A stretch of DNA of 35,644 bases from Candidatus Thorarchaeota archaeon (GTDB taxonomy: Archaea; Asgardarchaeota; Thorarchaeia; Thorarchaeales; Thorarchaeaceae), in assembly GCA_004524565.1 (NCBI GenBank), contig SDNZ01000010.1, positions 1 to 35,644 of the forward strand, read 5' to 3'. This document shows, in pieces, positions 1 through 20,862 of the stretch. The notes under the pieces were generated by a model that was given only the letters and a program-made list of their open reading frames with translations, did not search any database and was not told the DNA's origin. Positions within the stretch are counted from its first letter, which is position 1. Every line of letters starts with the position of its first letter. The translations under genes were made by a program, and so were the position numbers.

Positions 1-3000
1 GCTACAGCAGTCGTTGATTTTGGTCTTGATGAAGAAGGTACCGGAGGGGCTAATGCAGGAGCTGATGTAATAATTACATTCAGAGAGAGTCTGACGCCAG
101 CTATCTTTTCAGAATTTAATTTCTCAATCAGTCAGGATGGTTTTGATTTCAAGCAGATTCCTTCTGACTCGATGGAGATCATGCTTGGAAATAATCACAA
201 GCTCTTGATTGATGTGGATGAAGTTCTTGTTGAGAATAGATTTGACTGGTTTAGATATGCAAAGGTTTCGGTCTATAATAGTGGTAACTATTCGATCAAC
301 TCAATGGAACTAGTACAGGTTTACAATCTCATTACGGATGCGTTGTCTTTAGCCATTGGACCTCTCCGAAGAAATGGCGATGCATATGGGCTCGGACTAG
401 ATGAACCCAACAAAATCGTAGTAGCAACAACGATTGGTGAGTTCTACTGCATAGGCTACGAATCCGGAAAGTATAAGGTTCTATGGGAATCGTATGAAGA
501 TGAACGCTATTCTCTAGGTTCATACGTTTGGGATATCGAGCATATTGTATCAGTTGCAGAGGTTCCCGTCTTCAATGATATTGGATCTTTGAACAATATA
601 AATCCCCATATCGGAGGTTACAACTCGTGGACGTACGGAGTTCCTAGTCCAATATCAATGGGGGGTAATGGTCAACCGTACTATATTGTAGGAACCGATG
701 CGAGTATAGTAACCGCTCTAGATGTATCTGGAGAAACAGATTTCTCTATGACTGGAAGGTTGTCCGCAACATTATCTCCACATGACTATACATCTGCAGA
801 AGTTGTCAATCTCTGGCCTGCAACACCTCAGGGGCTCATGCCGATGGTTGTAGTTGGCGGATTCAGTCCTGATGGAAGATATGCTGATCCCACATCGTGG
901 AGTAGCAGATCCAACATTATGTTCTACTACCGCAACACTCCATTTGAAGACTTTATGGAGTTAGGTTCTATCAAGAGCTTTGACTGGACCGGAGAAATCA
1001 CGCAGATTCTGTCAATGTCGCAGGCTACACCTCGGATGAGTTTTGCTGACTATGATCATGATGGTGATCTTGACATGGTTATATCAAATGGTTTTGTGTA
1101 CATGGCAAAGAACATGTTCACTGAAACAAGCGCTCAACTCTTCCAATTTCAACCGGGCTATTTTGACGAAATCAATCTCAAAACTGGAGCTAACCTCTGG
1201 GGACAACCACAATGGGTGGATATCAATGGTGACGATGTTCTTGATTTGGTTCTTAATTATGATAGTAAATATGGAGCTACTTGTTTCTTAAACAAGGGTA
1301 CACACGCGACTCCTGACTGGTCTGAGGATAGACGCATATTCAACAACCCTGACACGGATACTGCAATGACACTGCTGAAGCTCAGAGATATCCGACTTGT
1401 ACCAAATACTGGTGGATATACTCTCCAGAATATGGCTGATAGTGCAGGTATTGAATTGAATGGGGACTTCTCACTTGCTGCCTATCAAGAAGATACGGGG
1501 TCTCTCAGATGGGCACTTGCTCATTATGATGCCATCGACACTTACCTCACTGCATCATATCCACGTGTTTCAAGGATTGATTTCTGCTTGATGAAAGGAG
1601 AATCATTCAGAAATCTTGGTTATCATATGCACGAGTCATGGAATACCGATTTTGACCTAGAGGATTGGACATTGACAATTTCATCTGGCGATTTGGATGG
1701 AGATGGACGGGGAGAGATTATAGTAGGTGACTACGACAACAATGTGTATGCATTTGAACATCTTTCAAATGCTACCTACAAACGAATGTTCCGTTCACTC
1801 GACCTTAATCACACCGAGATTAGTGATTCCAGCCCCTATGCATACCAACAACTTGAAGGGATATCTGGTGAATTCAATAGGCGAATTTGGGACCACGCGA
1901 AACATCTCTTGACTGGTACTGATCTTGACCAGGATGGGTTAGCTGAACTAGTAATCACTAGCGACTTACAAGTCTATATCTATGAGGCGACGGGAATAGA
2001 TGACACCATTAGGCTTGCATACTCTTTCGACCTAAGAAACCTTGGGTATTTGAACGAGGAATCCGATGCATGGGAGGAAGTAACGGAGATAACTGCAATC
2101 GAAGCTGGAGTTGACATGGACAGTGATGGTCGTAGAGACCTCATTGTTGCGGTAGGACCTTTCCTATTTGTATTCAACATTGATACAGATTCCTTCAATG
2201 GACTCGAACTCAATGACTACTTTGGAAGAACTGGTGATCTTGAAGGCAGATACTATCTGCTTGGCAATCCTGAAGGTGCAGATCCATACCAGGGGGCTGA
2301 TATCCGAAGTCTGGCTGTTGGTGATACCGACAACGATAGTCACCCAGAGATTATACTAGGCGGAGTTTATGACACTAGAGTTTCACTCCAAGATGGATTT
2401 GCGTACATCTACGAGTGTTGGGGTGGAACTTTCCAGAAAGTATGGGAAGCTCCTCCAGATATTGTTACATCGAATCCAGTTAGTGTAGTTCTAATTGATG
2501 ATCAAGACTATGACTCAAACCTTGAGGTCATCATTGGTCACTCAAAAGGATTTGATATTATGGAGTGGGACTCGAGTTCTGAGGACTACATCAACGCAGC
2601 GAAGGTCACCTCTTCGCCCAATTATCCCAATGTACAACTGGAATCTATCCTATTTCCTGGAATTGATACCATAACTTTCACTAATCGATGTGCCAATGAC
2701 ATGGCATATGCTATAGGGAATTCAGATGACCTCGCAATAATGGTTCTTGTTGATAACGAGCAACTCTACATGAAGGGACTAAATACAACTTCACTTCAAG
2801 TCATGTCAGCACCACTTGTGCCATTCATCAGTCAAACTATATCTGGTGACTATAATGACGTCACTGTTGTATCTGAGGTTCAACCCTCAATTACGAGTAA
2901 TGACAACGCAATCTGGCTAACTTGGAAAGCTGAGCGTGATTATGGACAATTTGATTTCTGGGTGTCTAGAATCGGTGTTGGTGATACGTGGTGGAGTGAT

Positions 3001-6000
3001 CCTGTACCTGTAAGGAATAATACTGAAAGCCTAGCAAGTAGAAATCATCCTGAGGTGTTTGTATACAATTCGACACATATCGGAATCATATACGTCAAAA
3101 ATGACATTGACACCTCAGAAGCATATTACTACCTAATGAAAGAAGACCTCTCAGAGATAAGCGATCCATATCTTCTAACATTCCCAGGGTGGGAATCCTT
3201 CGATATACAGAAGATTTCAGCTATCAAAATGCCAAATGGTGATTTCGAGATTGCTATGTCAGCAATTAACACACTAACGAGTAAGGGTGACTATGATATA
3301 TGGTCGTTACACTCTGATGCTCACTTCGACTTTAACAACAGCCTACCTCATAGAGCCACTGATTCTCACTACGATGAGATGTATCCTGATGTTGATTATT
3401 TAAGAAGTAACGGTAATCCCATAGTAATAGCATACGAGGTTGGTGGTGCATCATTTGAGAAACGATCTGGAATGGTGGCAAGTATTGACAATGGCAGTAC
3501 TTGGAGCGATCAGAACACACTCAATACATATCCCGATTATCTAGACAAATTGGAATATCCAGGGTTTCCAGGTCTCTTGTACTATGATATTGGTGGGATG
3601 CCATATCATGGTCCTATGACATACTCGCCTAGCGTGCTAGGTCATCTTGATACAGGGTTTCTATACCTCCAAGCTTTCAACATATTCGATTTTGGTGGAT
3701 CACCACAGCCTGATGTTATTTGGGGATACAATCCCTCTGGTGATTGGGTCGACAACCACCTTCGTGATGTTACAAACATGGTAGTAGGTGATACTGATTC
3801 AGATGGCAGACGTGAAGTAATAGTGTCATACGATTCGACATTTGCAGTCTATGAGATGGTTCATTCCACTAATGGGTCTGGATATATGACATACCAAGAA
3901 GCATATCTTTCAGACCCCTTCATCTTTGACATAACAGGGCTCACAGTTTATGACTCAGATAATAATGGATGGGAGGAGATTGGTGTGTCTTGTGAACGGG
4001 GTGAGGTGTTCATCTGGGAGTACAGAGACCCCTCTCATGGTGCAAGTGATTTCAGAACCTCTGATACTACTTCTTCACTCCAGCTCTTTGGTGGTGTGAT
4101 TGGGTATGTTCTAGATAGTGGAGATATCGATGGTGACTCAAAGAATGAGGTCGTATTCTCAGTATTGACAGGTTCACCTCGAATGAGTCTCTACATGATA
4201 GATGATGATGGTACAATAGGCTGGAATGTCACTCATGATACTACGTTAGCATCATTGGAATTATCCGATCTTGATGGTGATGGTCTGCAAGAGATTATTT
4301 GTGTTCAGTGGGGAGAACAATTCCTTCTTGCTTATAGTGGAGTTGATGGGCATTTGCTCTGGAATTGCACAGTATTCAGTGATGATATCGATGACTTAGA
4401 TATCGGAGATATTGACGGTGATGATATCAAGGAAATAATTGTTGGTTCTGGAGATGGTATTATTTGGGTTGTCAATAGTACTGGGGCCCTCTGGCATAGC
4501 GAAGCAGTAGATACTGGAACTCTCTGGGGACTCACCATAGGTGATTTCACAGATGATGATACATTGGGGGTTGCCTATGCCAACGCTACCTATGCTGTCA
4601 AGGTCATCAATCCATTGGATGGTACGCTTCTCTATGAATCACCAAATGATATGGTTGGTCATAGCTCTGGACGTCAACCAATGGAGGCATATGACTTCAA
4701 TTTGGATGGCTATGATGATGTTCTCTTTGGCAATAATATCATGATGCGAATGGTTGATGTAATATCAGGCTCGATCTTCTATAACTCCTCCGTGCAAGCA
4801 AGACTGATGAAATTGATAATTGATGACTTTGATGGGGATAATACTGCTGAGGTCTTCGTTCTTACGAAAGATGGCGGTGCCTACCTTGTTGAAGCTGGCA
4901 CATTACGAATGCAATGGCACTACGATTCCCTGCTTATTACACCAGACTCGTATGATTACTTCTCTATCAATGCAGCTTCTGGCTACTTTGGTGGCACTGG
5001 TGGTATAGATATAGCAATCAACGTCAACAGTACTCAGTTGGCTGTTATCGATGGTCGGAGTGGTCTTCCATTATGGGTGAATTTCATTGAAGATAATCTT
5101 GGATTACTAATCTCTGCTGATTTTGATGACAACGATGTGGACTCAGTTGTGACCCTTTACTGGAACTATCCTACAGAACCAACTTCTTCGTACCTTGTAA
5201 CATTTGATGGCATTGACTTCACAGGCCCTTCAATAGAACCTCAATATGTCCCACACATTCCGTATTGGGATGAGGATGTCGGGTATACGATACAGGGTAC
5301 TTGGGCTGCTGATTTGGATCAAGATGAGTATGATGAGGTGTTCATAAGGTATGATGACGATCGATTAGCAATTTGGGATACATATACTAACACAAGAATT
5401 ACAAGCATCTCTAGTGGCGATCACATAGACATGGTTCGATTTGGTGACATTGATCACTCCGGTAATGTTGACTTTGCTTTCCGTATCGATGAAGACACGA
5501 TTGGATTGGCAGAAGGAGAGACCTTTGCAAAACTCGGATACATCTATGCTCCAACAGGATTCGAAGTTGTTGATTACTACATAGGGAACTTCAATGGCTT
5601 ATACCTGGGTGATGAGATAGTCGTTCTCTTTGAAAAACCATTAGGTTCGGAGGCATATCTTGCCTGGTATAATTATGGCACCTTGCGATATATATCAAGT
5701 ATCAACTCTACTGATGATCACAACCAACTAGCTGTGGGCCACTTCCGGGGCACAGGTTTCTTGGATGTTGTTTTTGGTGGAGATGAGAATATTGCTCGTG
5801 TATACAACGGTGGTACTGGTGCTTATCTGTGGGAGTATAATATGTACACAGATATTGAAGAGATTGTTGCAGGTTACTTCAATGATGATGGGCACGAAGA
5901 TTTTGCGTTGAGTTCTGGTGTGCAAGTGAGAGTAATAGATACAAATCCCTTAGTAGAGGACCAGATGTATTCTGTATCACCAGGTGCATCCATACGTGAG

Positions 6001-6543
6001 GTCCACGCCGCAGACTTGTATCTAAATGATGGTGTTGATGAATTAGTATTGAATGTCCGATTCCATGGAGTCCTGGGTTATGACAATACAAGCTCTATTG
6101 TTTGGAGATATGATGCTCTTCTAAGCTACCCAACAATCGAACCATGGTCACACTATTCGACCTGCGTGTTTGGCGATATGAATGGTGACAGCCATACAGA
6201 TATGGTCTTCACCAATTATGAATATATCAACGTCATTGATGGGCATACAGGTGACTTCCTATGGCACTATGTCCGAAACGCGTCGGTACTAGGTCCAGTG
6301 ATTGGGCATTTTGATGGCCCCAGTTCGAAGGACTCGCTGGATATTGCAGCATATAGCGGTTCACATCTCTATATTATATCTGATAACCAGAATCCATTAC
6401 CTCCTCCTCTACCTATGAGTGGATTTCTAAATTCGAATGCAGAATTTTCACGACTGGTTGTTACAATATCGCTGACTGGAATCCTTGTAGCATTCACACT
6501 TTGCATCATTGTTTTGCATATTAGGAGGAGAACGGTGAAATAG
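1..6543 (+). CDS. Giant FG-GAP/VCBS-repeat surface protein with C-terminal membrane anchor (5' end outside window)
   Basis: The reading frame is open from base 1, so the first ATG at 172 is internal and the N-terminus, with any signal peptide, lies upstream; 2180 residues are visible. Many calcium-binding FG-GAP/VCBS-type loops of the form DxDxDGxxE are seen, for example DLDGDGRGE near 1690, DLDGDGLQE near 4268, DIDGDDIKE near 4408 and DFDGDNTAE near 4825, as in integrin-alpha-like beta-propellers. The middle part has a sialidase-like Asp-box (SIDNGSTW near 3482). The C-terminus (about 6445-6540) is a hydrophobic helix followed by RRRTVK, a typical anchor with the bulk of the protein outside the cell. 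Several propellers are likely. Role is inferred: cell-surface adhesion, recognition or S-layer-associated structure. Ligand unknown. Confidence 0.9.
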   Translation, partial: ATAVVDFGLDEEGTGGANAGADVIITFRESLTPAIFSEFNFSISQDGFDFKQIPSDSMEIMLGNNHKLLIDVDEVLVENRFDWFRYAKVSVYNSGNYSINSMELVQVYNLITDALSLAIGPLRRNGDAYGLGLDEPNKIVVATTIGEFYCIGYESGKYKVLWESYEDERYSLGSYVWDIEHIVSVAEVPVFNDIGSLNNINPHIGGYNSWTYGVPSPISMGGNGQPYYIVGTDASIVTALDVSGETDFSMTGRLSATLSPHDYTSAEVVNLWPATPQGLMPMVVVGGFSPDGRYADPTSWSSRSNIMFYYRNTPFEDFMELGSIKSFDWTGEITQILSMSQATPRMSFADYDHDGDLDMVISNGFVYMAKNMFTETSAQLFQFQPGYFDEINLKTGANLWGQPQWVDINGDDVLDLVLNYDSKYGATCFLNKGTHATPDWSEDRRIFNNPDTDTAMTLLKLRDIRLVPNTGGYTLQNMADSAGIELNGDFSLAAYQEDTGSLRWALAHYDAIDTYLTASYPRVSRIDFCLMKGESFRNLGYHMHESWNTDFDLEDWTLTISSGDLDGDGRGEIIVGDYDNNVYAFEHLSNATYKRMFRSLDLNHTEISDSSPYAYQQLEGISGEFNRRIWDHAKHLLTGTDLDQDGLAELVITSDLQVYIYEATGIDDTIRLAYSFDLRNLGYLNEESDAWEEVTEITAIEAGVDMDSDGRRDLIVAVGPFLFVFNIDTDSFNGLELNDYFGRTGDLEGRYYLLGNPEGADPYQGADIRSLAVGDTDNDSHPEIILGGVYDTRVSLQDGFAYIYECWGGTFQKVWEAPPDIVTSNPVSVVLIDDQDYDSNLEVIIGHSKGFDIMEWDSSSEDYINAAKVTSSPNYPNVQLESILFPGIDTITFTNRCANDMAYAIGNSDDLAIMVLVDNEQLYMKGLNTTSLQVMSAPLVPFISQTISGDYNDVTVVSEVQPSITSNDNAIWLTWKAERDYGQFDFWVSRIGVGDTWWSDPVPVRNNTESLASRNHPEVFVYNSTHIGIIYVKNDIDTSEAYYYLMKEDLSEISDPYLLTFPGWESFDIQKISAIKMPNGDFEIAMSAINTLTSKGDYDIWSLHSDAHFDFNNSLPHRATDSHYDEMYPDVDYLRSNGNPIVIAYEVGGASFEKRSGMVASIDNGSTWSDQNTLNTYPDYLDKLEYPGFPGLLYYDIGGMPYHGPMTYSPSVLGHLDTGFLYLQAFNIFDFGGSPQPDVIWGYNPSGDWVDNHLRDVTNMVVGDTDSDGRREVIVSYDSTFAVYEMVHSTNGSGYMTYQEAYLSDPFIFDITGLTVYDSDNNGWEEIGVSCERGEVFIWEYRDPSHGASDFRTSDTTSSLQLFGGVIGYVLDSGDIDGDSKNEVVFSVLTGSPRMSLYMIDDDGTIGWNVTHDTTLASLELSDLDGDGLQEIICVQWGEQFLLAYSGVDGHLLWNCTVFSDDIDDLDIGDIDGDDIKEIIVGSGDGIIWVVNSTGALWHSEAVDTGTLWGLTIGDFTDDDTLGVAYANATYAVKVINPLDGTLLYESPNDMVGHSSGRQPMEAYDFNLDGYDDVLFGNNIMMRMVDVISGSIFYNSSVQARLMKLIIDDFDGDNTAEVFVLTKDGGAYLVEAGTLRMQWHYDSLLITPDSYDYFSINAASGYFGGTGGIDIAINVNSTQLAVIDGRSGLPLWVNFIEDNLGLLISADFDDNDVDSVVTLYWNYPTEPTSSYLVTFDGIDFTGPSIEPQYVPHIPYWDEDVGYTIQGTWAADLDQDEYDEVFIRYDDDRLAIWDTYTNTRITSISSGDHIDMVRFGDIDHSGNVDFAFRIDEDTIGLAEGETFAKLGYIYAPTGFEVVDYYIGNFNGLYLGDEIVVLFEKPLGSEAYLAWYNYGTLRYISSINSTDDHNQLAVGHFRGTGFLDVVFGGDENIARVYNGGTGAYLWEYNMYTDIEEIVAGYFNDDGHEDFALSSGVQVRVIDTNPLVEDQMYSVSPGASIREVHAADLYLNDGVDELVLNVRFHGVLGYDNTSSIVWRYDALLSYPTIEPWSHYSTCVFGDMNGDSHTDMVFTNYEYINVIDGHTGDFLWHYVRNASVLGPVIGHFDGPSSKDSLDIAAYSGSHLYIISDNQNPLPPPLPMSGFLNSNAEFSRLVVTISLTGILVAFTLCIIVLHIRRRTVK

Positions 6544-6615: not shown

Positions 6616-7569
6616 ATGAACCGGGAGTTCTTCAATCTGTTTAGTACTCGACTAAAACAAACATTAGATGCTGGTACCTTCGCAATTACTGGCGAGATTA
6701 GTCCCCCAAGAGGTGCTGATTCCAACCTTGTCATTGAAGGGACCAAGTTGATTGCAGATTATTGTGATGCTATCAATATTACGGACAACGTTAGTGGAAT
6801 TCCCACAATGAGTAGTACAGCATGTGCACGTCTTGTTTTAGAAACAGGTGCAGAACCAATAATGCAAATATCCACCCGAGATAGAAATAGAATTTCGGTA
6901 GAGAGTGAACTCTATGGTGCGTATGCATTAGGAATTAGGAATGTTCTCTTTATCACCGGTGATCGTACAATATTAGGTGCACATTCCAACGCAAAAATGG
7001 TCTTTGATATTGACTCTATCCAAGCACTCCAACTCTCAAGTCATCTAATGCGAGGTACTGATTTTGATGGGGGGGAACTAGAAGGAACTCCTAAGTTCTT
7101 CATGGGTTCTACTTTCAATCCTTATGCGGATTCAATCGAAATGGAACTTCAAAGAACTGAAATGAAGCGAGATGCGGGAGCAGAATTCTTTCAGACACAA
7201 GCAATTTTTGATACTGATAGGTTTGAATTTTTTATGGAATCAGCTAGAGATTTGAAACTCAAGGTTTTAGCAGGCGTAATACCCCTCCGAGGACCATTGA
7301 TGTCTCGCTTCATGAACGAGAACGTACCTGGTATCAACATTCCTGAAAAATATATCAAACGCCTCGAATCCGCTGGCAAAGGTCTTAAGGAAGACGAAGC
7401 CAGAGCAGCTATGCTAGAAGAAGGATTGCTCATTGCTTCGGAAACTATCAAGACGATTCGAAAAATCAGAGGAATCCACGGTCTTCACTTGATGAGCATA
7501 GGAAGGGAGGAGAGTATTCCCGAACTCATCAAACGAGCAGGGCTCTCCCCAAGGATTAGAAAGGTGTGA
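6616..7569 (+). CDS. metF: Methylenetetrahydrofolate reductase family protein (MetF-like)
   Basis: A 317-residue TIM-barrel flavoprotein of the MetF family, which reduces methylene-tetrahydropterin to methyl-tetrahydropterin. Visible family signatures are the early EISPPRGAD segment (substrate/FAD side, the Glu being the catalytic acid in MetF), the NITDN strand, the FITGDR turn after the third strand and the GAEFFQTQ strand. Length fits single-domain MetF (about 290-320). It is the first gene of a tight group with MtrH- and MtrA-like genes 7 bases downstream, so it probably supplies or consumes the methyl-pterin used by them. Whether the pterin is folate or methanopterin cannot be read from the sequence. 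A Shine-Dalgarno-like AAGGAG lies at 6588, too far from this ATG to be convincing; no better in-frame start is seen. Confidence 0.88.
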   Translation: MNREFFNLFSTRLKQTLDAGTFAITGEISPPRGADSNLVIEGTKLIADYCDAINITDNVSGIPTMSSTACARLVLETGAEPIMQISTRDRNRISVESELYGAYALGIRNVLFITGDRTILGAHSNAKMVFDIDSIQALQLSSHLMRGTDFDGGELEGTPKFFMGSTFNPYADSIEMELQRTEMKRDAGAEFFQTQAIFDTDRFEFFMESARDLKLKVLAGVIPLRGPLMSRFMNENVPGINIPEKYIKRLESAGKGLKEDEARAAMLEEGLLIASETIKTIRKIRGIHGLHLMSIGREESIPELIKRAGLSPRIRKV

Positions 7570-7576
7570 AACTATC

Positions 7577-8494
7577 ATGTTTGTCTTCAAAAAGGAACAA
7601 CATACGTACGATTTTGGTGGAGTTACCATAGGTGGACATCCTGGAGAGAATCCCACAGTACTGATCGGAGGTCTCTTCTTCAAAGGTCAACCAATTGTTG
7701 AGGATACCCGAGATGGCACATTCAACAAGACTCTAGCATTGGAATGGATTAACACTGCCAATACTATGACAGAGAAGACTGGGCATCCTCTTATGATTCA
7801 AGCCTTTGGACGTACGCCAACAGCGATGGAAAATCATCTCTCATGGCTCTCAGAACATTTCGATGGTCCGATCTTGTTCGAATCCACAAACGCGAATGCT
7901 AGGATAAGAGCTATAGAATATGCTGATGAAACTGACTTAAGCAATCGAGTGATTTACAACTCTATCAACCTCTCAATGAAAGATGCTGAAAAAGATGTAT
8001 TGAAGAAAAGTGCTCTAAACATGGCTGTTCTACTCGGATGGTCTCCCCGTGCTACGTCTCTTCCTGAGAGAATGAAAACAATAACTGATATGTTCGAACT
8101 TTCCAAAGAACTTGGTATGGAAAAAGTTCTCGTTGACCCTGCAACAATGCCTGTTGGCGCTGGATATGGCTTAGAACATCGCACTATTCTTGCTGTAAAA
8201 TCAGAACTAGGTCTACCAACGTGCCTTGGTCCCCATAATGCACCCTCTGCATGGCGTTTTCTCAAAGAATCCGGATTTGACGATGAATCCACTCAAATGG
8301 CTACTATTGTCGCATCCACAGTGGTTTCTCAGGTCCTTGCTACAGATGCTATAATGTATGGTTCCATGATACGAACCAAAGAAGTATTTGCAGCTGTTGC
8401 ACTCATATCGAATGCAATGGCAACAGCTGTTGCAGAAGCTAACAATGTACTTGGTATAGAGCGGGACATCTTCGATCCCCCAACTTATGATTAG
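7577..8494 (+). CDS. mtrH: MtrH-like methyltetrahydropterin:corrinoid methyltransferase, copy 1
   Basis: A 305-residue homologue of subunit H of tetrahydromethanopterin S-methyltransferase, the subunit that moves the methyl group between methyl-H4MPT and the corrinoid of MtrA. It begins MFVFKKEQHTYDFGGV, the typical MtrH opening, and keeps GGHPGENPTVLIG, the VIYNSIN segment, DPATMPVGAGYG and the GPHNAPSAW segment, which are spread as in pterin-binding methyltransferases. An AAGGTG ribosome-binding site precedes the ATG by 10 bases. It lies between the MetF-like gene and the MtrA-like gene. In methanogens MtrH works inside the eight-subunit membrane complex MtrA-H; the other membrane subunits are not in this window, so a soluble two- or three-part methyl-transfer system is the simpler reading. 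Confidence 0.9.
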   Translation: MFVFKKEQHTYDFGGVTIGGHPGENPTVLIGGLFFKGQPIVEDTRDGTFNKTLALEWINTANTMTEKTGHPLMIQAFGRTPTAMENHLSWLSEHFDGPILFESTNANARIRAIEYADETDLSNRVIYNSINLSMKDAEKDVLKKSALNMAVLLGWSPRATSLPERMKTITDMFELSKELGMEKVLVDPATMPVGAGYGLEHRTILAVKSELGLPTCLGPHNAPSAWRFLKESGFDDESTQMATIVASTVVSQVLATDAIMYGSMIRTKEVFAAVALISNAMATAVAEANNVLGIERDIFDPPTYD

Positions 8495-8505
8495 GAGGTC
8501 AATCA

Positions 8506-9192
8506 TTGAGTAAAAATCATGAATGGCCACCGGTTCCAGGTGATTTCGAAGTTAAAGATCCTTCACACTGTGTAGCAATTTGCACCCTTGGGAAAAAACT
8601 CGAGGTTTCTTGTGAATGTGCTATCATTGGGACTTGTAAGACTGAGAATATTGGCATTGAACGAGTTATAATCAATGTAATCTCAAATCCGAATATTCGC
8701 TTTCTGATATTGACTGGTCCTGAGGTTCCAGGTCATCTGACTGGTCGGACTCTTAGTGCACTTCACAAGAATGGGGTTGATTCAAAGACTAGAAAAATTA
8801 TCGATGCTGAGGGTGCTATTCCATACATTGAGAATGTTCCACTGGAAGGAATTGAACGATTTCGAGAACAAGTTGAACTCATAGAGATGATCAATACTCT
8901 TGACCCTCTGGAAATCGAAGGAAAAAGTATTGAAATCGCTAAACGAAATCCTGGTCCTTTCTCAGAGACCGCAATGTGGATTGAATTTCAAGCTTCGTCC
9001 AGCGAATCTAGGAAACCAAGAATTACTGCAGACACAGTGCTTCTTCCTGAATTTGGAACAGTATTCGATTATTCATCATCATTAGTAACAAAATCTGAAT
9101 CACACTCAGTAATTACTGAGCATCCAACTCCTATTGTTGTTGAAGTTAGAACGAGTGATTCAGGTACACTTCTCATTGGAAAGGAGGGATAG
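8506..9192 (+). CDS. mtrA: MtrA-like corrinoid protein, soluble form
   Basis: A 228-residue homologue of the corrinoid-carrying subunit A of tetrahydromethanopterin S-methyltransferase. The core is well conserved: EWPPVPGDF at the start, CAIIGTCKTENIGIE, NVISNPNIRFLIL and PEVPGHLTG; His77 in the last motif is the likely counterpart of the cobalt-ligating histidine (His84 in studied MtrA, an assignment from memory of the family). The C-terminal membrane helix that anchors methanogen MtrA is absent: the protein ends in a polar segment. The start is TTG at 8506, chosen because a strong AGGAGGT lies at 8493-8499 and the protein then begins at the expected point. It sits between two MtrH-like genes with gaps of 11 and 4 bases. 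Confidence 0.9.
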   Translation: MSKNHEWPPVPGDFEVKDPSHCVAICTLGKKLEVSCECAIIGTCKTENIGIERVIINVISNPNIRFLILTGPEVPGHLTGRTLSALHKNGVDSKTRKIIDAEGAIPYIENVPLEGIERFREQVELIEMINTLDPLEIEGKSIEIAKRNPGPFSETAMWIEFQASSSESRKPRITADTVLLPEFGTVFDYSSSLVTKSESHSVITEHPTPIVVEVRTSDSGTLLIGKEG

Positions 9193-9196
9193 TGCT

Positions 9197-10132
9197 ATGT
9201 TCGTATTTGAGAAAGAACAAATCATCTACAATATCGGCGGTGTGAAAATTGGTGGTGGTCTTGGAGAGACTCCAACAGTTCTTGCTGGAACCATATTCTA
9301 TGGTGGTCACAAAATCGTAGATGATGTGAAGAAAGGTGTATTCGATAAGGAAAAGGCAACTGAACTCATAGCCAAACAGGATGAAATGTCTTCAATGACT
9401 GGTAATCCTGCGTTGGTTCAGATATTTGCAGAAACCTCGGAAGCTATGCTTAGGTACATTGATTTTGTGACAGACCTTACAGCAGCTCCATTCCTCATTG
9501 ATTCAACTGAGGCTAGTGTTCGTATAGCTGGATTAAAGCATGCTGAGGAGGTTGGACTACTTGACCAAGCAGTCTATAATTCTATCAATGTGTCCATATC
9601 AAAAGAAGAATTATCACAACTCGGTGAGATCCAACATGAATGTGCAATAGTTCTAGCATTCAATCCTCAGGATTCCACAATAGCTGGAAGAAGAGCGGTT
9701 CTGGAAAAAGGAGCATTGGAACAGGACAAGGGTCTCTTAGAGTTATGCAAGGAAATCGGAGTAACAAAACCTCTACTCGATACAGCTGTAACTGCAATGG
9801 GTGCCGGAGCTGGTTCAGCAGCAGCTTTCACTTTTGTATGTAAAACGGTCTATGGTCTACCAACAGGTTCTGGCGTTCACAATGCCCCTGCTTCGTGGTC
9901 ATGGTTGAGAAAATACAAGAAAATCAATAGAGACGTATTTCAAACTGCAGATATTGCATCTAACCTGATTGTTCAAATGATGGGAGCGGATTTCGTGTTA
10001 TACGGTCCCATTGAGAATGCAGAGAGAGTTTTCCCAGTTGTAGCAATGGGCGACACTTTTACAGCAGAATCTGCATACCTCGAGTTTGGAATTGAGCCTG
10101 GACCTGATCATCCATTTAAAAAATTATTATGA
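9197..10132 (+). CDS. mtrH: MtrH-like methyltransferase, copy 2
   Basis: A 311-residue second MtrH-family protein, starting MFVFEKEQIIYNIGGV. The start at 9197 is preferred over an upstream in-frame start at 9134 because it has GGAGGG at 9184-9189 and matches the other MtrH start. It is clearly diverged from copy 1: DTAVTAMGAGAG replaces DPATMPVGAGYG, and GVHNAPASW replaces GPHNAPSAW. The pterin-binding TIM-barrel family is the same. Two MtrH paralogues around one corrinoid protein suggest either that each serves a different methyl donor or acceptor (for example a pterin and a methylated compound) or that they form a heteromer; the sequence does not decide. Its stop overlaps the next start (ATGA). 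Confidence 0.9.
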   Translation: MFVFEKEQIIYNIGGVKIGGGLGETPTVLAGTIFYGGHKIVDDVKKGVFDKEKATELIAKQDEMSSMTGNPALVQIFAETSEAMLRYIDFVTDLTAAPFLIDSTEASVRIAGLKHAEEVGLLDQAVYNSINVSISKEELSQLGEIQHECAIVLAFNPQDSTIAGRRAVLEKGALEQDKGLLELCKEIGVTKPLLDTAVTAMGAGAGSAAAFTFVCKTVYGLPTGSGVHNAPASWSWLRKYKKINRDVFQTADIASNLIVQMMGADFVLYGPIENAERVFPVVAMGDTFTAESAYLEFGIEPGPDHPFKKLL

Positions 10133-11532
10133 TGGTGAAGAGCAATTTGCAACAAGTCTTGAAACCTAAAACGATTGGAATATCCTCACTTCGAATGGGT
10201 CCGTTCTACACTGTTGCATCCGTTGAACTTGGAAATACTACTACCAAAGCTATCATTGTTTCTACGAACCTAAAGACCGCTGAAATCTTTGAGATTGAAA
10301 AAGAGGTGCGAATGACACGAGATGTTAGACCCCCAAGAGCGGGTGAGGAAATATTTGGTGAAACTGTCTTTGGTGTCCAATTAACTCAGGAATCTGTCGC
10401 TGAGATGATATCCAGTATCCTAACTTCAGTTATTTCAAAGTCCAATCTAAACATTGAACGAGATCTGCATTTTGTTGTTCGCTCCACAGGAGTGACTGCG
10501 GGATTTGCTAGTCCAGAAGAAGTAGGATCGATTGTCAAGGCTCTTGCAGATGGCTGCCTTCAAGCTGGAGTTCCACCACGAAAAATGACTGCGTCAATAA
10601 CGCCTGAACAACTCCCACCAGGACTACGTGACTTCACATGGTTGAAGAAGGTCTATTTCGACGGAGCCATTGCGTCATCTCTTCCTCCTGCAAATACTGA
10701 GATAGTTGCAAATGAGATGGAGGGCGAACTAGTCACAGCAGGACTCAAGGGAGCAGTAAAGGGAACTAATATAGATTTCAGAAACCCTGTGATGACACTG
10801 GACTTTGGAACTACACTTGCTGGAAGGATCACTGACCGTGGTTTTCCCTACGCAAAGACAATAGGATCCTTTGCTGGTCTAGCAGGTGCAATACCTGATG
10901 CAATTGTTCGAGGTGCTGGCTTAGCTCAGGCAGGGACCGGCTGTGTTCTAGATGTACTCCCTGCTGGAACAACTAATCCTACTAAGATTGATCCGATGAA
11001 TGTTTTCGATGCACATGATCTTATTACTGTGGAGCGCGTACCCGAATCCGCCTCTCGATATGGAACCGTTCCTGTTAATCCAAAAGCAGCAAATGAATCC
11101 GATGTTGTATTGATAGGTGTAGATGCTAACTTAGAAAAAATGGAAAATTTTGGTAGAACATTATCTGAAGGATATACTTTGGATTACTTACATGAAGTTA
11201 TAGATGGAATACAAGCTGGAGTTGTGGAGCGGATCCTAAAGGTTGCCGAATCTGAAAATCTTGTTCTCGAAGATACCTCACTTGGTCTGACCGGACGAGC
11301 AATAACAACAGGTACCAAACCCGACCGCATTGCTAAATATCTGAAATTAAGTTCGGGTGAATTCTGGACTGATGCACATCAGATAGTGTTTGTTGAAGAT
11401 GGACTGGCTATGGGTGCCGCTGTTGCAGCTAGATGCATGAATTCTATGGGCACTACAAAACATCCAATGGGTGGTAGAAAGGGTGACCGTTGTATCATGG
11501 CTGAACGAATGAAGCTTCAAGGTAAGAAGTGA
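10129..11532 (+). CDS. Methanogenesis marker 14-like ASKHA-fold protein
   Basis: A 467-residue protein that I recognise as the methanogenesis marker protein 14 family. It has the ASKHA ATPase signatures: VELGNTTTKAI at residues 32-42 (phosphate loop 1, with Glu where Asp is common) and TLDFGTTLAG near residue 224 (phosphate loop 2), plus a glycine-rich end. The start codon overlaps the stop of the MtrH gene, so the two are probably translated together. ASKHA proteins include ATP-dependent reactivators of corrinoid methyltransferases (RamA, RACo types are functionally comparable) and EutA; a reactivating role for the MtrA-like protein here is an inference from gene order. A second ATG at 10132 is an alternative start. 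Family use in non-methanogens is the odd point. Confidence 0.8.
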   Translation: MMVKSNLQQVLKPKTIGISSLRMGPFYTVASVELGNTTTKAIIVSTNLKTAEIFEIEKEVRMTRDVRPPRAGEEIFGETVFGVQLTQESVAEMISSILTSVISKSNLNIERDLHFVVRSTGVTAGFASPEEVGSIVKALADGCLQAGVPPRKMTASITPEQLPPGLRDFTWLKKVYFDGAIASSLPPANTEIVANEMEGELVTAGLKGAVKGTNIDFRNPVMTLDFGTTLAGRITDRGFPYAKTIGSFAGLAGAIPDAIVRGAGLAQAGTGCVLDVLPAGTTNPTKIDPMNVFDAHDLITVERVPESASRYGTVPVNPKAANESDVVLIGVDANLEKMENFGRTLSEGYTLDYLHEVIDGIQAGVVERILKVAESENLVLEDTSLGLTGRAITTGTKPDRIAKYLKLSSGEFWTDAHQIVFVEDGLAMGAAVAARCMNSMGTTKHPMGGRKGDRCIMAERMKLQGKK

Positions 11533-11576: not shown

Positions 11577-12356
11577 ATGCAAATCTTTCCTATTAAAACA
11601 CGAATCATCAGTCAGGTAGATAATGTTGTAGACATTCTTCTAGAAAGTCTAGAGATATTAGGAATTACTCTTTTGGATAATGACATCATCACCATAGCTG
11701 AAACCCCTCTTGGGACGACGGAAGGCCAGGTGGTAAAACTATCTGAAGTTGAGGTATCTGAGGAGGCAAAAATCCTTGGAGAAAAATATGAGATTCTTCC
11801 AGAAGTTGCAGAACTGATTCTCCAGGAAGCTGATGAGATTCTTGGAGGAATACCTCGTGTTGTCCTAACAATCAAGAATAATACTCTCATGGCAAATGCT
11901 GGTGTAGACAAATCTAATATTCCTCCCGGATATGCTTCTCTCCTACCAATTGATGCTCGCGCTAGTGCAGATAGTTTGCGCTCAGAAATTAAAGAAAGAA
12001 CTGGGAAATCTGTTGGAGTCATGGTGATAGATAGCAGAACGCAACCCCTGCGACTGGGTAATATAGGAATGGCATTAGGTGTGGCAGGGTTTCGGCCGGT
12101 TGCTGATGACCGCGGTCGACATGATCTTTTTGGAAATGAATTGAGGATTACTCGACGAGCCATTGCCGATAATCTTGCATCTGCTTGCACTGCTGTGATG
12201 GGCGAGTCGGATGAATCTGTTCCAATCGCATTAATTCGAGATGCCCCCGTGGAGTTTGTGGATCAATCATTTGATTCTTCTGAGATGTGGATGCCTCCAG
12301 ATGAATGCATGTACATGGCAATCTTCGATCAGTGGCGAAAAGATGCTTCGAAATAA
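11577..12356 (+). CDS. cofE: Coenzyme F420-0:L-glutamate ligase
   Basis: A 259-residue protein of the CofE family, which adds glutamate residues to F420-0 using GTP to make coenzyme F420-2. It matches in length (about 250) and has the family segments FPIKTRIISQVDNV at the N-terminus, TIAETPLGTTEGQVV, an NAGVDKSN motif, RIT-RR close to the C-terminal third, and the DDRGRHDLFG loop typical of CofE. The gene starts 44 bases after the marker 14 gene on the same strand and may belong to the same transcript. Its presence shows F420 biosynthesis, which fits a methanopterin/F420-type C1 metabolism. No clear Shine-Dalgarno is seen ahead of the ATG. Confidence 0.95.
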   Translation: MQIFPIKTRIISQVDNVVDILLESLEILGITLLDNDIITIAETPLGTTEGQVVKLSEVEVSEEAKILGEKYEILPEVAELILQEADEILGGIPRVVLTIKNNTLMANAGVDKSNIPPGYASLLPIDARASADSLRSEIKERTGKSVGVMVIDSRTQPLRLGNIGMALGVAGFRPVADDRGRHDLFGNELRITRRAIADNLASACTAVMGESDESVPIALIRDAPVEFVDQSFDSSEMWMPPDECMYMAIFDQWRKDASK

Positions 12357-12509
12357 CTAATGAGGGCATTCAAACTAGCAACTTAATTAGTAAGGTCCAT
12401 ACTTAGTAGCAGTACAGAATAATGAGTGTGGTACGTGTCCATCAAAGAAAGAAAGAAAAGGACCATAGAGATGTCATTCACACTCGGTGGAGTATACGCA
12501 GGAGCAATA

Positions 12510-13892
12510 ATGAACTTGGCAAAGAAACGAGTTTTAATCGATGTAGCTACAGCAGGTGCATCCGGAGACATGTTCCTATCCGCCTTAACTGATCTCATCG
12601 GAGAAGCAGATGTTCTATTGCCTGTTGCTGCAAGTCTACTAATATATGATCCCTCATTTCGATTAGCCATAGGTACCAAGGAGCATTCGGGAAATACCGG
12701 TAGAGTTCTGCAAATAACTCGAAATCCAACAATACGACTTAGTCCTAGTTCTATGATGGAAGTTCTTCAAGCTGTAGCAGAAGAAGTGGAGTTATCATCA
12801 AAGGCTAAGACCTTCGTGAAGGATACCATGACGGTGATTCTTCAGGCTGAGAGTCGAGCCCATAACAAACCAATCGATGAATTGCATCTTCATGAAACAG
12901 GAAGCATTGATACGGTCCTTGATATCGTTGGTACAGCATATCTGCTGGAACGTGCTGGTCTGTTTGAAGATACAGAGATAATCTCTACGCGAGTTGCAAC
13001 AGGAAGTGGTATTATCTCCACTGAACACGGTGATCTTGAAGTACCCGTACCAGCGGTAGCTGAGATTCTTGTAGTTCATGATATGCTATTCCATAATGGT
13101 GCTGCTGAAACAGAGGTTCTTACTCCAACTGGTGCAGCAATTTTAGCTACACTTGCAACTGAATATGTAGATTCGGTTGAAGATTTCGTATCAAAGAATC
13201 AAGGAGTAGGTTTTGGAACAAGAAACCTTGGCGATGTTCCAAATATGATGAAGATAATCGTGGGCGAAGTTGTTGTTTCTGAGGATGCAAAATCCGAGAG
13301 ACCTTCGAAACCTTCGAAAGATGAACCTAAGAAGACAGCTTCTAAGACTGAACCCAAAGAGGAAGTAAAACCAGTTGAAGTCACTAAATCAAAGACCGAG
13401 GAGCGAATAGGTGTGCTAGATGAGTGGAATGCAGATGAAGTAGTCGTTATCGAAACGAATGTTGATGATGTTGATGGTGAAACTCTAGGAACGCTATTCG
13501 ATACTTTGCTCGATGAAGGGTTGGCTTATGATGTAGTCATCATTCCTGCGTTTGGAAAGAAAAATAGACCCTGTCATATAGTGAAAGTCATTGCTCCCAA
13601 GACTGGACTGAAGGGTATCGCAGAGGTCATGATACGACAGCTGGGAACAATTGGTGTCCGTTACACTACCTGGGAACGACTGAAGGCCACTCGCGAGACC
13701 CTTGTCTGTTCTCTTGAGATTGATGACAAGGAATACATGGTTCGCGTAAAGGTTGCAAGAACAAGAAATGGGAGTATAATCAGTATCAAGCCTGAATCCG
13801 ATGATATGATTCGGGTATCTCGTGAAACTGGTATTCCAATTCGTGAACTTAAACCACGAATTGCAATGCAAGCACATGCAGTCAATGAGTAG
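12510..13892 (+). CDS. larC: LarC-type nickel insertion protein (nickel-pincer cofactor biosynthesis)
   Basis: A 460-residue LarC/DUF111 protein. LarC inserts nickel into the pyridinium dithiocarboxylate nucleotide in a CTP-dependent reaction. The N-terminal domain shows VLIDVATAGASGDMF and LHLHETGSIDTVLDIVG; the C-terminal domain shows IETNVDDVDGETLG and FGKKNRPCHIVKV. Between them is a charged Lys/Glu/Pro-rich linker (codons at about 13280-13410) of low complexity. In some bacteria the two halves are joined by ribosomal frameshifting; here they are in one frame. The ATG at 12510 is preferred over upstream in-frame starts (12426 GTG, 12471 ATG) since GGAG lies at 12501 and the protein then begins where the family does. 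LarB and LarE are not in the window. The last 11 bases overlap the polymerase gene on the other strand. Confidence 0.9.
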   Translation: MNLAKKRVLIDVATAGASGDMFLSALTDLIGEADVLLPVAASLLIYDPSFRLAIGTKEHSGNTGRVLQITRNPTIRLSPSSMMEVLQAVAEEVELSSKAKTFVKDTMTVILQAESRAHNKPIDELHLHETGSIDTVLDIVGTAYLLERAGLFEDTEIISTRVATGSGIISTEHGDLEVPVPAVAEILVVHDMLFHNGAAETEVLTPTGAAILATLATEYVDSVEDFVSKNQGVGFGTRNLGDVPNMMKIIVGEVVVSEDAKSERPSKPSKDEPKKTASKTEPKEEVKPVEVTKSKTEERIGVLDEWNADEVVVIETNVDDVDGETLGTLFDTLLDEGLAYDVVIIPAFGKKNRPCHIVKVIAPKTGLKGIAEVMIRQLGTIGVRYTTWERLKATRETLVCSLEIDDKEYMVRVKVARTRNGSIISIKPESDDMIRVSRETGIPIRELKPRIAMQAHAVNE

Positions 13893-17775: not shown

Positions 17776-18342
17776 ATGGTCACTGCACTATTCAAAGTTG
17801 TACTCATGGGTGACGGAAGCGTCGGGAAGACCAGTCTCCGTCGAACCTACATGGGCGAAGGTTTCAGAGCTAATTATATGATCACCATCGGTGCAGACTT
17901 CGCCGTTAAGAAGATGTCACTTGAAGGTGGTCATGAGGTGTCGATTCAAATTTGGGATCTGGCAGGCCAGGAGCACTTCAAGAGTGTCCGCTCTACCTTC
18001 TATAAAGGAGCTCAAGGAGCATTAGCAGTGTACTCTACAGTTGAGCGAGGATCTTTTGATAATCTCATGAACTGGGTGGATGAGTGCTGGACCAACGCTG
18101 GTAAGAAGATCCCAATAGTTCTCATTGCTAACAAGACCGACCTTAGAGACCAGTTTAAAGACAATCCCGTGATGGCACAGACAATCGTAACAACAGAAGA
18201 GGGGCAGAAACTTGCAGATAGCATTGCAAGTCAAGGTGTAGTTACTTCCTTCCTTGAGACCAGTGCAAAGACTGGACAAAATGTAGAAGCTTCATTCTTA
18301 GAATTAGCCATCAAAATTCTCGAAGCTGGCGGTTTGGCTTAA
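17776..18342 (+). CDS. Ras/Rab-like small GTPase
   Basis: A 188-residue small GTPase of the Ras superfamily. All G boxes are intact: GDGSVGKT (G1, residues 12-19), Thr37 in TIGADF (G2), WDLAGQE (G3, with Gln65 for hydrolysis), NKTD (119-122, G4) and ETSAKTG (G5, about 161-167). The WDLAGQEHFKSVR segment is close to Rab (WDTAGQERF). There is no C-terminal Cys, so no prenylation as in eukaryotic Rabs; membrane attachment would need a partner. AGGTGG at 17764-17769, six bases before the ATG, fixes the start. Its 3' end is three bases from the convergent HEAT-repeat gene. Role is inferred: a switch in intracellular organisation, with the Roadblock gene at 21545 a candidate regulator. Confidence 0.95.
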   Translation: MVTALFKVVLMGDGSVGKTSLRRTYMGEGFRANYMITIGADFAVKKMSLEGGHEVSIQIWDLAGQEHFKSVRSTFYKGAQGALAVYSTVERGSFDNLMNWVDECWTNAGKKIPIVLIANKTDLRDQFKDNPVMAQTIVTTEEGQKLADSIASQGVVTSFLETSAKTGQNVEASFLELAIKILEAGGLA

Positions 18343-18345
18343 ACG

Positions 18346-19572
18346 CTATTCACCATTCATGTCAACAATATCTAGGTCTCTGAGAATTGTTTCATAGACA
18401 TCGCTTGCTGCAGAGTGAAGTATCTCATTGTTATTAGAAAAAACATCAATTCGTAATTTCGAAATGTTATCTTTCAGAGTTCCAACAACTGTTAGAGTGA
18501 CTGCAAGAACATTTTCTGAGAATGTACTCCTAGCTATTCCTGCTATGACTCCCATGAACGTGTTTTCCCGCTCCATCTCTTCGTTTTGAAAGACATAGAG
18601 GTTCTTGGTTTCTAAAATGCCATGCAAGGATTTGTAGACCTCTCTTGCTTCGGCTCCTATCGTATGTTCTCTGTTCCACTTTTCCATATCCGATTTCATA
18701 TGAATGAAATCATCTGCTCCCATTTCATAAGGTGCAAATTGGTTGTAGATAGACCTGATGAAAACATTACCCGCTTTTGCAGCAAGGTCCTCTCCGTTAT
18801 CATCAACAAGACGGACTGAGGTAATTATTTCGCCTTCAATACATTCGCCTCGAATCTTGAATCCAAAGATCAACGATCCTGAATCGTTTGGCTCTATCTC
18901 TTCAATCAATTGAGTTAGCTCGTCCATTGGACTAAGACATTCATTTGGAAATGCAAGGATAGATACACTCACTTCATAGATGGAAGTCTGTCCCTCATTC
19001 TTGATTGTGATTCCATATTCCAAAGTTTCCGATGTTGTTGTGTAATCATTTATGACGAGGACATCGTCGGTTGTTCGAAGAGGAATAGTATCTGTTTCAA
19101 GGAGAATTTCCGTAGGATCTTCCCTTGAAACTGGAATATATGGACTATCAGGAGCGTGTTCTCCATACTTCTGTAACCATTCTATTGCGTAGGCAACGGT
19201 TTCTCTGACACTTTCTGTATTGTCACCTGTATACTTCTCAAGTATTGGAATTGCATCAAGTCTTCGTGTGTACGCTAACATACCCGCAGCAACAGTCCGA
19301 ATATCTGCACTTTCGTCATTAAGTGCAATATCAAGGGATTCGAATGCATCCTCACCCCATTCTCCTAACCTACACACAGCTAATAGTCGAGTGTCTTTGT
19401 CCCCTGTTAGAGCTGCATCCTTTGTTGCCTGAATACTCGTGATATCCTCCAACATATGTGCAATTTTATCCTCTGTTTGATTCAAAACTTGTTTTACAGC
19501 TTTTTTGAGACGTCGAAGTGATTCGCCACCTCCCAACGCCCTTGACAAGTTCCTGTCAGACTTTCTGGACAA
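18346..19572 (-). CDS. HEAT-repeat protein with appendage-like C-terminal half
   Basis: A 408-residue protein. Residues 1-50 are basic, then charged helix. Residues about 55-135 hold HEAT-like helical pairs (TRLLAVCRLGEWGEDAFESL, IRTVAAGMLAY, SVRETVAYAIEWL). Residues about 165-260 look like a beta-sandwich (EYGITIKNEGQTSIYEVSVS, then SLIFGFKIRGECIEGEIITS). Residues about 280-400 are an alpha/beta domain with an ADDFIHMKSDMEKW helix and strands VLAVTLTVVGTL and LRIDVFSNNNEILH. HEAT solenoid, Ig-like sandwich, then alpha/beta platform is the order found in adaptin and COPI appendages, but sequence similarity is too weak for me to claim homology. TTG start with GGAGG six bases upstream. The gene faces the small GTPase and shares a 160-base divergent promoter region with the WD40 gene. 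Confidence 0.8.
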   Translation of the reverse strand: MSRKSDRNLSRALGGGESLRRLKKAVKQVLNQTEDKIAHMLEDITSIQATKDAALTGDKDTRLLAVCRLGEWGEDAFESLDIALNDESADIRTVAAGMLAYTRRLDAIPILEKYTGDNTESVRETVAYAIEWLQKYGEHAPDSPYIPVSREDPTEILLETDTIPLRTTDDVLVINDYTTTSETLEYGITIKNEGQTSIYEVSVSILAFPNECLSPMDELTQLIEEIEPNDSGSLIFGFKIRGECIEGEIITSVRLVDDNGEDLAAKAGNVFIRSIYNQFAPYEMGADDFIHMKSDMEKWNREHTIGAEAREVYKSLHGILETKNLYVFQNEEMERENTFMGVIAGIARSTFSENVLAVTLTVVGTLKDNISKLRIDVFSNNNEILHSAASDVYETILRDLDIVDMNGE

Positions 19573-19732
19573 AGGTTACCCTCCTGACTCTCCCTTTTTC
19601 TAGGATATTTAATGATTATTGGCCTGAATAATCTGATGGTGTTAGATAATACACCTTTTGATGCCGTACTCGCAACACTTTTACGCACTCCTAAGTTCGC
19701 CTCATTGTGAATCAGCCCTGTGAGGGAATCCC
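19573..19732. promoter_or_regulatory. Divergent promoter region between HEAT and WD40 genes
   Basis: 160 bases without a gene. AT-rich TATTTAATGA at about 19606-19615 suits a TATA box for the HEAT gene on the minus strand; Shine-Dalgarno GGAGG for that gene is at 19580-19585 and GAGGG for the WD40 gene at 19721-19726. The two genes may be controlled together. Confidence 0.45.
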
Positions 19733-20854
19733 ATGGAAAACCAGGATCAGAATATCTTCTTGAAACCAACTATCCTCAGGCAACAGGCTGAACATGGCGC
19801 AGATATCACGCGAAGATTCGCAATGAATCGCGTTGGGCGCATGTTTGCCGCAGCACTTCAGGATCGAAGTATTAGACTCTTTGCTGCTGAAGATGCTGAA
19901 GAGATGCAGGTCATGCAAGATGATTTCCTGAGCACGTCTCTGGCATTCAGTCCAAAAGGAGACATAGTTGCCTCTGGAACTGTTGAGCGTGTTGTAAAAC
20001 TCTGGGATATTCGCTCGGGTGAATGTGTTGGGACGCTTGAAGGTCATACGTATCCTGTTCTCTCATTATCATTCTCTCCAGATGGTAGTAAACTTGTATC
20101 AGGTAGTGGTGATACAACTCTGATCATTTGGGATATGGATAATCAATCTCAGATGCGTCGAATGAAAGGGCATGGGTTCTACGTAGTCGCTGTTGATTGG
20201 GACCCTAATGATAACAGAATAGTTTCCGGCTCGGTAGATGCGAATATCTGTGAATGGGATTCAAATACTGGCGAGATGATCGCGCGTCATTCTGAACATC
20301 GAACAGCAGTAAGAGAAGTCCGCTTCAATCCCAACGGAACTAAACTTGTTTCAGGTTCATCTGACCTGACCATGGTGCTTTGGGATTCTACATTCAAACC
20401 AATGAAAGTTGATAGAACTCTCCAAGCTCACGAGAGCGAGGTTCGCGCTCTTGGTTTTAGTCATGATGGGAAATATCTCGCTTCTGGCTCTTCTGACAAG
20501 ACAATATTACTTTGGGATATGGACACTCTTCAAGTTCAAGGTCAAGCCTCAACAATGGGTGAAATCGATGGAATCGAATGGTACCCAAATCAGCATGCAT
20601 TCATCACATCTGATGGCACAGGAGCAATCCTTCGATGGGACGTCGAAGATATGGGTGCAATGTTGCACCCTTTCCAAGAACTACTCACTGAGATTGAAAC
20701 TGCCAATGACCCAAATCGACGGGATGAATTCATTCAGAAATTTGATGAGATTTCTGGAAGATATGACGAAGCAACACTACAGACAAAGAACATGTTCTAC
20801 GTTGTCTGGCAATGCAAACGAGCATTAGGAATACTCAAGGGTAGTGTGAAGTAA
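19733..20854 (+). CDS. WD40-repeat beta-propeller protein
   Basis: A 373-residue protein made almost only of WD40 repeats. Clear blades end in KLWDI, IIWDM, CEWDS, VLWDS, LLWDM and LRWDV, with FSPDG or FNPNG and GS-D-T turns between, giving six or seven blades over residues about 25-315, enough for one closed propeller. The last 60 residues (after LHPFQELLTEIE) are helical and polar. There is no signal peptide or membrane segment, so it is cytoplasmic. WD40 propellers are protein-binding scaffolds; in eukaryotic coats they pair with helical solenoids. Here the solenoid candidate is the divergent HEAT gene next door. The gene ends eight bases from the convergent Rab-like GTPase. Confidence 0.95.
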   Translation: MENQDQNIFLKPTILRQQAEHGADITRRFAMNRVGRMFAAALQDRSIRLFAAEDAEEMQVMQDDFLSTSLAFSPKGDIVASGTVERVVKLWDIRSGECVGTLEGHTYPVLSLSFSPDGSKLVSGSGDTTLIIWDMDNQSQMRRMKGHGFYVVAVDWDPNDNRIVSGSVDANICEWDSNTGEMIARHSEHRTAVREVRFNPNGTKLVSGSSDLTMVLWDSTFKPMKVDRTLQAHESEVRALGFSHDGKYLASGSSDKTILLWDMDTLQVQGQASTMGEIDGIEWYPNQHAFITSDGTGAILRWDVEDMGAMLHPFQELLTEIETANDPNRRDEFIQKFDEISGRYDEATLQTKNMFYVVWQCKRALGILKGSVK

Positions 20855-20862
20855 TCGAGGTA

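Follow-up and report, generated by a model that had tools for sequence, protein, structure and literature searches.

We describe a five-gene operon for soluble, cobamide-dependent methyl transfer on contig SDNZ01000010.1 of an uncultured Candidatus Thorarchaeota archaeon (class Thorarchaeia; GenBank assembly GCA_004524565.1). The window analysed is this whole contig (35,644 nucleotides, G000:C59), and its genome, G000, is 3.13 Mb long and 86% complete. The operon encodes a MetF-type methylene-pterin reductase, two MtrH-family methyltransferases (MtrH1 and MtrH2), the cobamide carrier MtrA and the ASKHA-fold protein marker 14. With about as much confidence as doubt, we propose that the products form a soluble methyl relay uncoupled from Na+, running via MetF, methyl-tetrahydromethanopterin (methyl-H4MPT), MtrH2 and MtrA to a second carrier at MtrH1, while marker 14 would revive oxidised cobamide. 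The broader claim of a sequence-only reading of the window, that this is a soluble cobamide methyl-transfer module without methanogenesis, is supported, no Mcr or MtrE being detectable in the genome.

Operon structure and conservation

The five genes lie closely spaced on one strand, with gaps of 7, 11 and 4 bases and then a 4-base overlap; ORF (open reading frame) positions and profile searches confirm the sequence-only reading on all of this. MtrA and MtrH are separate ORFs, each with a stop codon and its own Shine-Dalgarno sequence, and are not fused. The mtrA gene starts at TTG, preceded by AGGAGGT, and MtrH2 starts at the ATG at 9197, its Shine-Dalgarno sequence overlapping the end of mtrA. 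Family calls are strong for MtrH2 and marker 14; those for MtrH1 and MtrA are clear yet fall below the curated equivalog cut-offs. G000 has one MtrA and two MtrH, all within the operon.

Neighbourhoods of ~16 kb were fetched from 19 genomes of the same family and from one of another family. The order MetF-MtrH1-MtrA-MtrH2-marker 14-CofE-LarC, followed by a convergent PolB gene, is intact in 17 of the 19 same-family neighbourhoods, with gaps of -4 to 23 bases between operon genes. Contigs named as Thorarchaeota (L104-L132) have the identical order as far as they extend, so the arrangement is not a matter of chance. The operon is found at least in part in all 13 genera of the GTDB family, and its order is kept wherever contigs allow, with two exceptions. 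At the exceptional locus of G034 metF is absent. The single-contig genome G036 retains 43 residues of marker 14 beside CofE and LarC (L052, G036:C1:468500-484500), where the operon seems to have been deleted naturally. Marker 14 occurs in 35 of the 37 same-family genomes, this remnant counted; the other two, G020 and G029, have mtrA and both mtrH, with the last mtrH incomplete where the contigs appear to end. All five genes are under purifying selection (ratio of nonsynonymous to synonymous substitution rates, dN/dS, 0.07-0.22 against the close relative G013).

Absence of Mcr and MtrE

Genome searches covered 59 genomes (G000 and 58 others), 37 of which belong to the same family, and two methanogen controls. 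McrA (PF02249) was found in none of the 59 and in both controls. The same holds for MtrE (PF04206), the only one of MtrB-G to be given its own search, used as a stand-in for MtrCDE. Because both McrA and MtrE are missing from every genome, the operon is not a plain Mtr complex, and the absence of MtrE also rules out a plain Mtr remnant with its other subunits encoded elsewhere. The sequence-only reading had reported MtrB-G and McrA as absent, and for McrA and MtrE this now extends to the 59 genomes. It had also named mtrB-G and mcr in the same genome as the finding that would contradict it; mcrA and mtrE, the two genes tested, are not there. PMC9635834 already reports that Thorarchaeia keep canonical MtrA and MtrH without other Mtr subunits or Mcr.

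Two unequal MtrH proteins

The pterin site of Methanosarcina mazei MtrH comprises Asp103, Asn129, Asp196 and Asn230, with Thr32, Gln75 and His229, and a patch of Arg239/Lys242/Lys243 meets the pterin tail; the protein is a homodimer whose interface holds MtrB via Asp5 and Arg211 (PMC12774963). In M. mazei numbering, MtrH2 keeps D103 (18 of 19 sequences), N129, D196 and N230, and usually the Arg/Lys/Lys patch. MtrH1 has T32G and D103E in all 20 sequences, including that of G042 from another family, and this G32/E103 pair is not seen in any of the 54 other homologues compared (MtgA-type proteins, MtrH2 and MtrH of methanogens). N129, D196, N230 and H229 are kept in every MtrH1, and the Lys-Lys tail patch is absent from the copy in the window.

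In a maximum-likelihood tree MtrH1 forms a separate clade (support 100/100, stem 1.33), MtrH2 groups as the sister of MtrH from methanogens (support 91/87), and the additional, third MtrH copies found in Thorarchaeia fall among MtgA-type proteins. The long-stemmed clade marks MtrH1 as an old, maintained variant and not a recent duplicate, as does the recurrence of G32/E103 in the other-family genome. Thus the two MtrH paralogues of the sequence-only reading are both present but are not equivalent, MtrH2 being of methanogen type and MtrH1 belonging to an ancient clade whose pterin site is altered. The remodelled active site of MtrH1 points to a new methyl partner.

The MtrB-holding positions are divided between the paralogues: MtrH1 has Lys or Arg at 5 (19/19) and Arg at 211 (19/19), and MtrH2 has mostly Glu or Asp at 5 and Ala or Ser at 211. 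This split suggests that MtrH1 and MtrH2 may pair as a heterodimer.

MtrA without a membrane anchor

The cobamide site of MtrA is defined by His84, Glu54 and the motif GAIP(F/Y)xEN (PMC4915002). The corresponding cobamide-ligating His77, its partner Glu47 and the motif GAIPYIEN are kept in 18 orthologues, and Lys45-Thr46-Glu47 is conserved. The core of an AlphaFold 2 (AF2) model matches 5laa and 5l8x in Foldseek. There is no C-terminal membrane helix; the maximum 19-residue hydropathy is 1.26, in the core at residue 23. A conserved C-terminal extension of ~55 residues (~173-228) takes the place of the anchor. AF2 predicts it, at low confidence, to consist of strands and to be beta-rich, and it is common to G042, again a genome of a different family.

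Marker 14 as a candidate reactivator

Marker 14 has been linked to Mtr and is absent from Methanomassiliicoccales (PMC4153887). In agreement with that link, 35 of 51 non-Thorarchaeial contigs with marker 14 also show mtrH, which in every case lies upstream and on the same strand, no more than 400 bases away in 23 of them; in Methanobacteriales marker 14 lies behind mtrH. Marker 14 has no match by sequence in the PDB, and a Pfam search gives DUF2114 only, with no Fer2, RACo middle or RACo C-terminal domain. Its AF2 model (pLDDT 82, pTM 0.86) has an ASKHA fold, for which RACo (4c1n/3zyy) is among the top Foldseek matches, together with hexokinases and Qri7. From the model it is predicted to be an ASKHA ATPase.

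We call marker 14 a putative ATP-driven reactivator of the MtrA cobamide mainly because the set of MtrH, corrinoid protein and ASKHA protein parallels the MtgA-type MtrH with RACo. Within the family, this third MtrH copy stands beside a complete RACo gene (confirmed in L228; L227 and L230 have a gene of equal size) and a gene for a B12-binding corrinoid protein, to which G034 alone adds an MtmB-like gene. At L227 an aldehyde:ferredoxin oxidoreductase gene accompanies the MtmB-like gene.

MetF and the pterin pools

The Fe-S protein MetV (PF12225) is encoded directly upstream of metF in about half of the neighbourhoods, with HflX before that in most. MetV is missing from the window contig, where a 2123-residue protein with FG-GAP repeats and a hydrophobic segment at its C terminus (172-6543) stands upstream of metF, in the place that HflX-MetV has in relatives.

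Mer scores above cut-off in ~16 relatives, and almost every one of these carries the operon too; none does so in G000. MetF as a simple replacement for Mer was considered and is ruled out by the coexistence of Mer and operon in ~15 relatives, though not in G000 itself. Thorarchaeota are reported to have both H4MPT and tetrahydrofolate (H4F) branches (PMC6737245), and MetF of the ANME-1 type, whose relatives include Asgard sequences, has been proposed to act on H4MPT (PMC9012536). MetF and MtrH2 together place a methyl-pterin on one side of the relay. The operon contains no enzyme with a homocysteine/zinc domain (PF02574, PF01717). Taken with the Mer and MetF data and the reported pair of branches, this is best fitted by a relay between two carriers via MtrA.

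Proposed mechanism and alternatives

The operon would encode a soluble Mtr core that moves methyl groups via protein-bound cobamide and neither pumps sodium nor yields methane. Methyl-pterin would come from MetF, aided by MetV in genomes that have it; MtrH2, with its unchanged H4MPT-type site, would exchange the methyl group with cob(I)amide on soluble MtrA; and MtrH1 would pass it between MtrA and a carrier of another kind, for which a second pterin such as H4F is the likeliest candidate. This last step would link the H4MPT and folate one-carbon (C1) pools. Marker 14, using ATP, would return accidentally oxidised Co(II) to the active cycle, the part that RACo plays for other corrinoid proteins. 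The analysis shows the gene content and its conservation, the lack of MtrE and McrA, the active-site residues and the predicted folds; the direction of flow, the identity of the second carrier and the marker 14 reaction are what we infer. More narrowly, MtrH1-MtrA-MtrH2 is tentatively a cobamide-dependent methyl shuttle between two C1 carriers (H4MPT and H4F, or another acceptor), though we would sooner expect otherwise. To our knowledge no such enzyme reaction has been described before. H4F at MtrH1, another acceptor there and an MtrH1 that only scaffolds are all unproven.

Several observations weigh against the relay. The operon is dispensable, since G036 has lost it. A single-pterin system is possible for G000, where no Mer passes the cut-off. 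Marker 14 lacks the Fer2 domain of RACo, and in Foldseek it matches RACo no better than it matches hexokinases or Qri7 (TM ~0.3). The tail patch of G042 MtrH1 is partly basic (KKTIK), which weakens the argument from that patch. Finally, T32G and D103E could lower catalysis and leave MtrH1 as a scaffold.

That last point leads to a structural role for MtrH1, which we think somewhat doubtful: in an MtrH1-MtrH2 heterodimer only MtrH2 would be catalytic, and the beta extension of MtrA would dock where MtrB docks in canonical Mtr. The divided positions 5 and 211, the absence of MtrE and the new extension on MtrA would suit such an arrangement, but N129, D196, N230 and H229, present in every MtrH1, are more than a scaffold needs.

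Methionine supply is a less probable use, in which methyl-MtrA would donate to homocysteine and replace the methionine synthase missing from Thorarchaeia. The MetE/Mes core (PF01717) and the homocysteine S-methyltransferase domain (PF02574) were found in none of the 37 same-family genomes, the 86% complete G000 among them. Since PF01717 misses the Methanosarcina acetivorans control, a MesC-like profile was built (A3), and it too finds no MesC-like protein in the 37. Most Thorarchaeia thus apparently have no recognised methionine synthase. The homocysteine biosynthesis protein HcyBio is nonetheless present in nine of the 37 (G000 and eight others), and MtrA has been proposed as donor to MesA in methanogens (PMC7857596). 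MesC itself was rejected as the synthase of the family: two weak profile matches lead only to a divergent Mes-like family of 388-392 residues, found in three to four of the 37 genomes and in G052. Its members have the homocysteine-site Ser and Asp and the zinc-site Glu and Cys, with His-x-His where His-x-Cys is usual. Against the relay acting in methionine supply stand these Mes-like proteins, encoded elsewhere in three to four same-family genomes, the lack of a zinc-thiolate (homocysteine) enzyme in the operon, an MtrH1 with no visible zinc site and most pterin contacts kept, and the many genomes, possibly of methionine auxotrophs, that have the operon and no HcyBio.

A route that feeds methyl groups of methylated compounds into the Wood-Ljungdahl pathway, as discussed for related MtrH-corrinoid pairs of Asgard archaea and Bathyarchaeia (PMC11291895, PMC7886697), is improbable here: neither the operon nor its conserved neighbourhood includes an MT1 gene, MetF points to a pterin-derived methyl group, and the family has for that job a separate MtrH of MtgA type, accompanied by RACo, a B12-binding protein and, in a single genome, an MtmB-like gene. 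The sequence-only reading had methyl groups feeding into or out of the C1 pool; soluble cobamide transfer stands, but the acceptor was left unnamed, and entry from methylated compounds is unsupported for this operon. Soluble methyl-coenzyme M (CoM) formation, proposed for MtrAH of Sifarchaeia, Jordarchaeia and Freyarchaeia (PMC9723677, PMC11291895), is just as improbable, since the cavity that binds CoM is part of MtrCDE, of which MtrE is missing, the neighbourhood has no MtaA-like gene, and methyl-CoM is of no use without Mcr.

Comparison with known systems

The methanogen Mtr complex (MtrA-H), a Na+-pumping methyl-H4MPT:CoM methyltransferase, shares with the operon an MtrA with a cobamide-ligating His, an intact H4MPT-type site as in MtrH2 and, in Methanobacteriales, an adjoining marker 14. 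The operon differs in having no MtrE or Mcr, an unanchored MtrA, a second, remodelled MtrH and metF.

The canonical MtrAH of Thorarchaeia (Adam et al. 2022, PMC9635834) is very probably the same system, so the system as such was already known; that it is a fixed feature of Thorarchaeia, published there in outline, had escaped the earlier reading. The portion of it drawn on here ties to Mtr a marker 'm26', which may or may not be marker 14, and gives no account of the operon, of metF/metV, of the divergent MtrH1 or of the MtrA extension. New here are the operon with its MetF/MetV part, the change in MtrH1, the extension of soluble MtrA, the parallel with RACo and the gap in methionine synthases.

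The MtrAH fusion of Freyarchaeia, Atabeyarchaeia and other Asgard archaea (PMC11291895) likewise combines MtrA and MtrH without Mcr or the Mtr complex, but in the operon these are separate polypeptides, with two MtrH and marker 14. In other members of the phylum most MtrA matches lie in open frames of 509-586 residues and have lower scores. The MtgA-type system shares the logic of a soluble pterin:corrinoid methyltransferase with a reactivator and differs in its B12-binding PF02310 fold, true RACo with Fer2, D75/S32 pterin site and one MT1-like gene; Pfam finds neither MT1 nor a PF02310 corrinoid protein in the operon. The ANME-1-type MetF(V) that replaces Mer (PMC9012536) also pairs MetF with MetV in archaea, but here MetF is part of an MtrHAH operon and many relatives keep Mer as well.

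A Mtr core that works without its membrane pump reveals what MtrA, MtrH and marker 14 are capable of by themselves. Being simple, soluble and expressible, the system lends itself to finding out what marker 14, which is conserved in methanogens with Mtr, does, and the remodelled site of MtrH1 makes the specific prediction, open to test, that there is a new methyl carrier. If true, the two-carrier shuttle would explain why a fragment of a sodium pump and its marker 14 repair ATPase survived the loss of methanogenesis. The operon may also be part of the answer to the apparent methionine-synthase gap of Thorarchaeia. No relatives closer to eukaryotes than Asgard archaea are known, which gives their C1 metabolism a bearing on models of how eukaryotes arose.

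Features and neighbouring genes

Table 1. Genes of the operon, its downstream neighbours in the window, and Mes-like proteins of related genomes (bits are given against the family cut-off)
Feature	Position	Strand	Details
MetF-type methylene-pterin reductase	6616-7569	+	317 aa; PF02219 3.2e-33; PRK08645 C-terminal half
MtrH1, MtrH-family methyltransferase with altered pterin site	7577-8494	+	PF02007 3.2e-73; below TIGR01114 cut-off
MtrA, soluble cobamide carrier	8506-9192	+	PF04208 1e-57; below TIGR01111 cut-off
MtrH2, methanogen-type methyl-H4MPT:cobamide methyltransferase	9197-10132	+	PF02007 1e-119; TIGR01114 403.7 bits (cut-off 271.4)
Marker 14 (DUF2114, arCOG04866), ASKHA-fold protein	10129-11532	+	TIGR03285 571 bits (cut-off 274); PF09887
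CofE-like F420-0:gamma-glutamyl ligase	11577-12356	+	PF01996 4.9e-68; TIGR01916 184.5 bits (cut-off 180.65); synteny
LarC nickel-pincer cofactor protein	12426-13892	+	PF01969 6.8e-91; synteny
Divergent Mes-like proteins	L201:1414-2589 (-); L203:1438-2601 (-); G012:C425:7599-8756		no Pfam match; weak PRK06052

The CofE-like ligase directly downstream possibly glutamylates F420 or a pterin side chain, and LarC is a co-conserved neighbour of the operon. A promoter and terminator scan and an Rfam search of the window gave nothing useful. Further along, the window holds a group of eukaryotic-signature genes (17776-21928) that encode Ras-family GTPases (17776, + strand; 20863, - strand), a WD40 protein (19733) and a roadblock/LC7 protein (21545).

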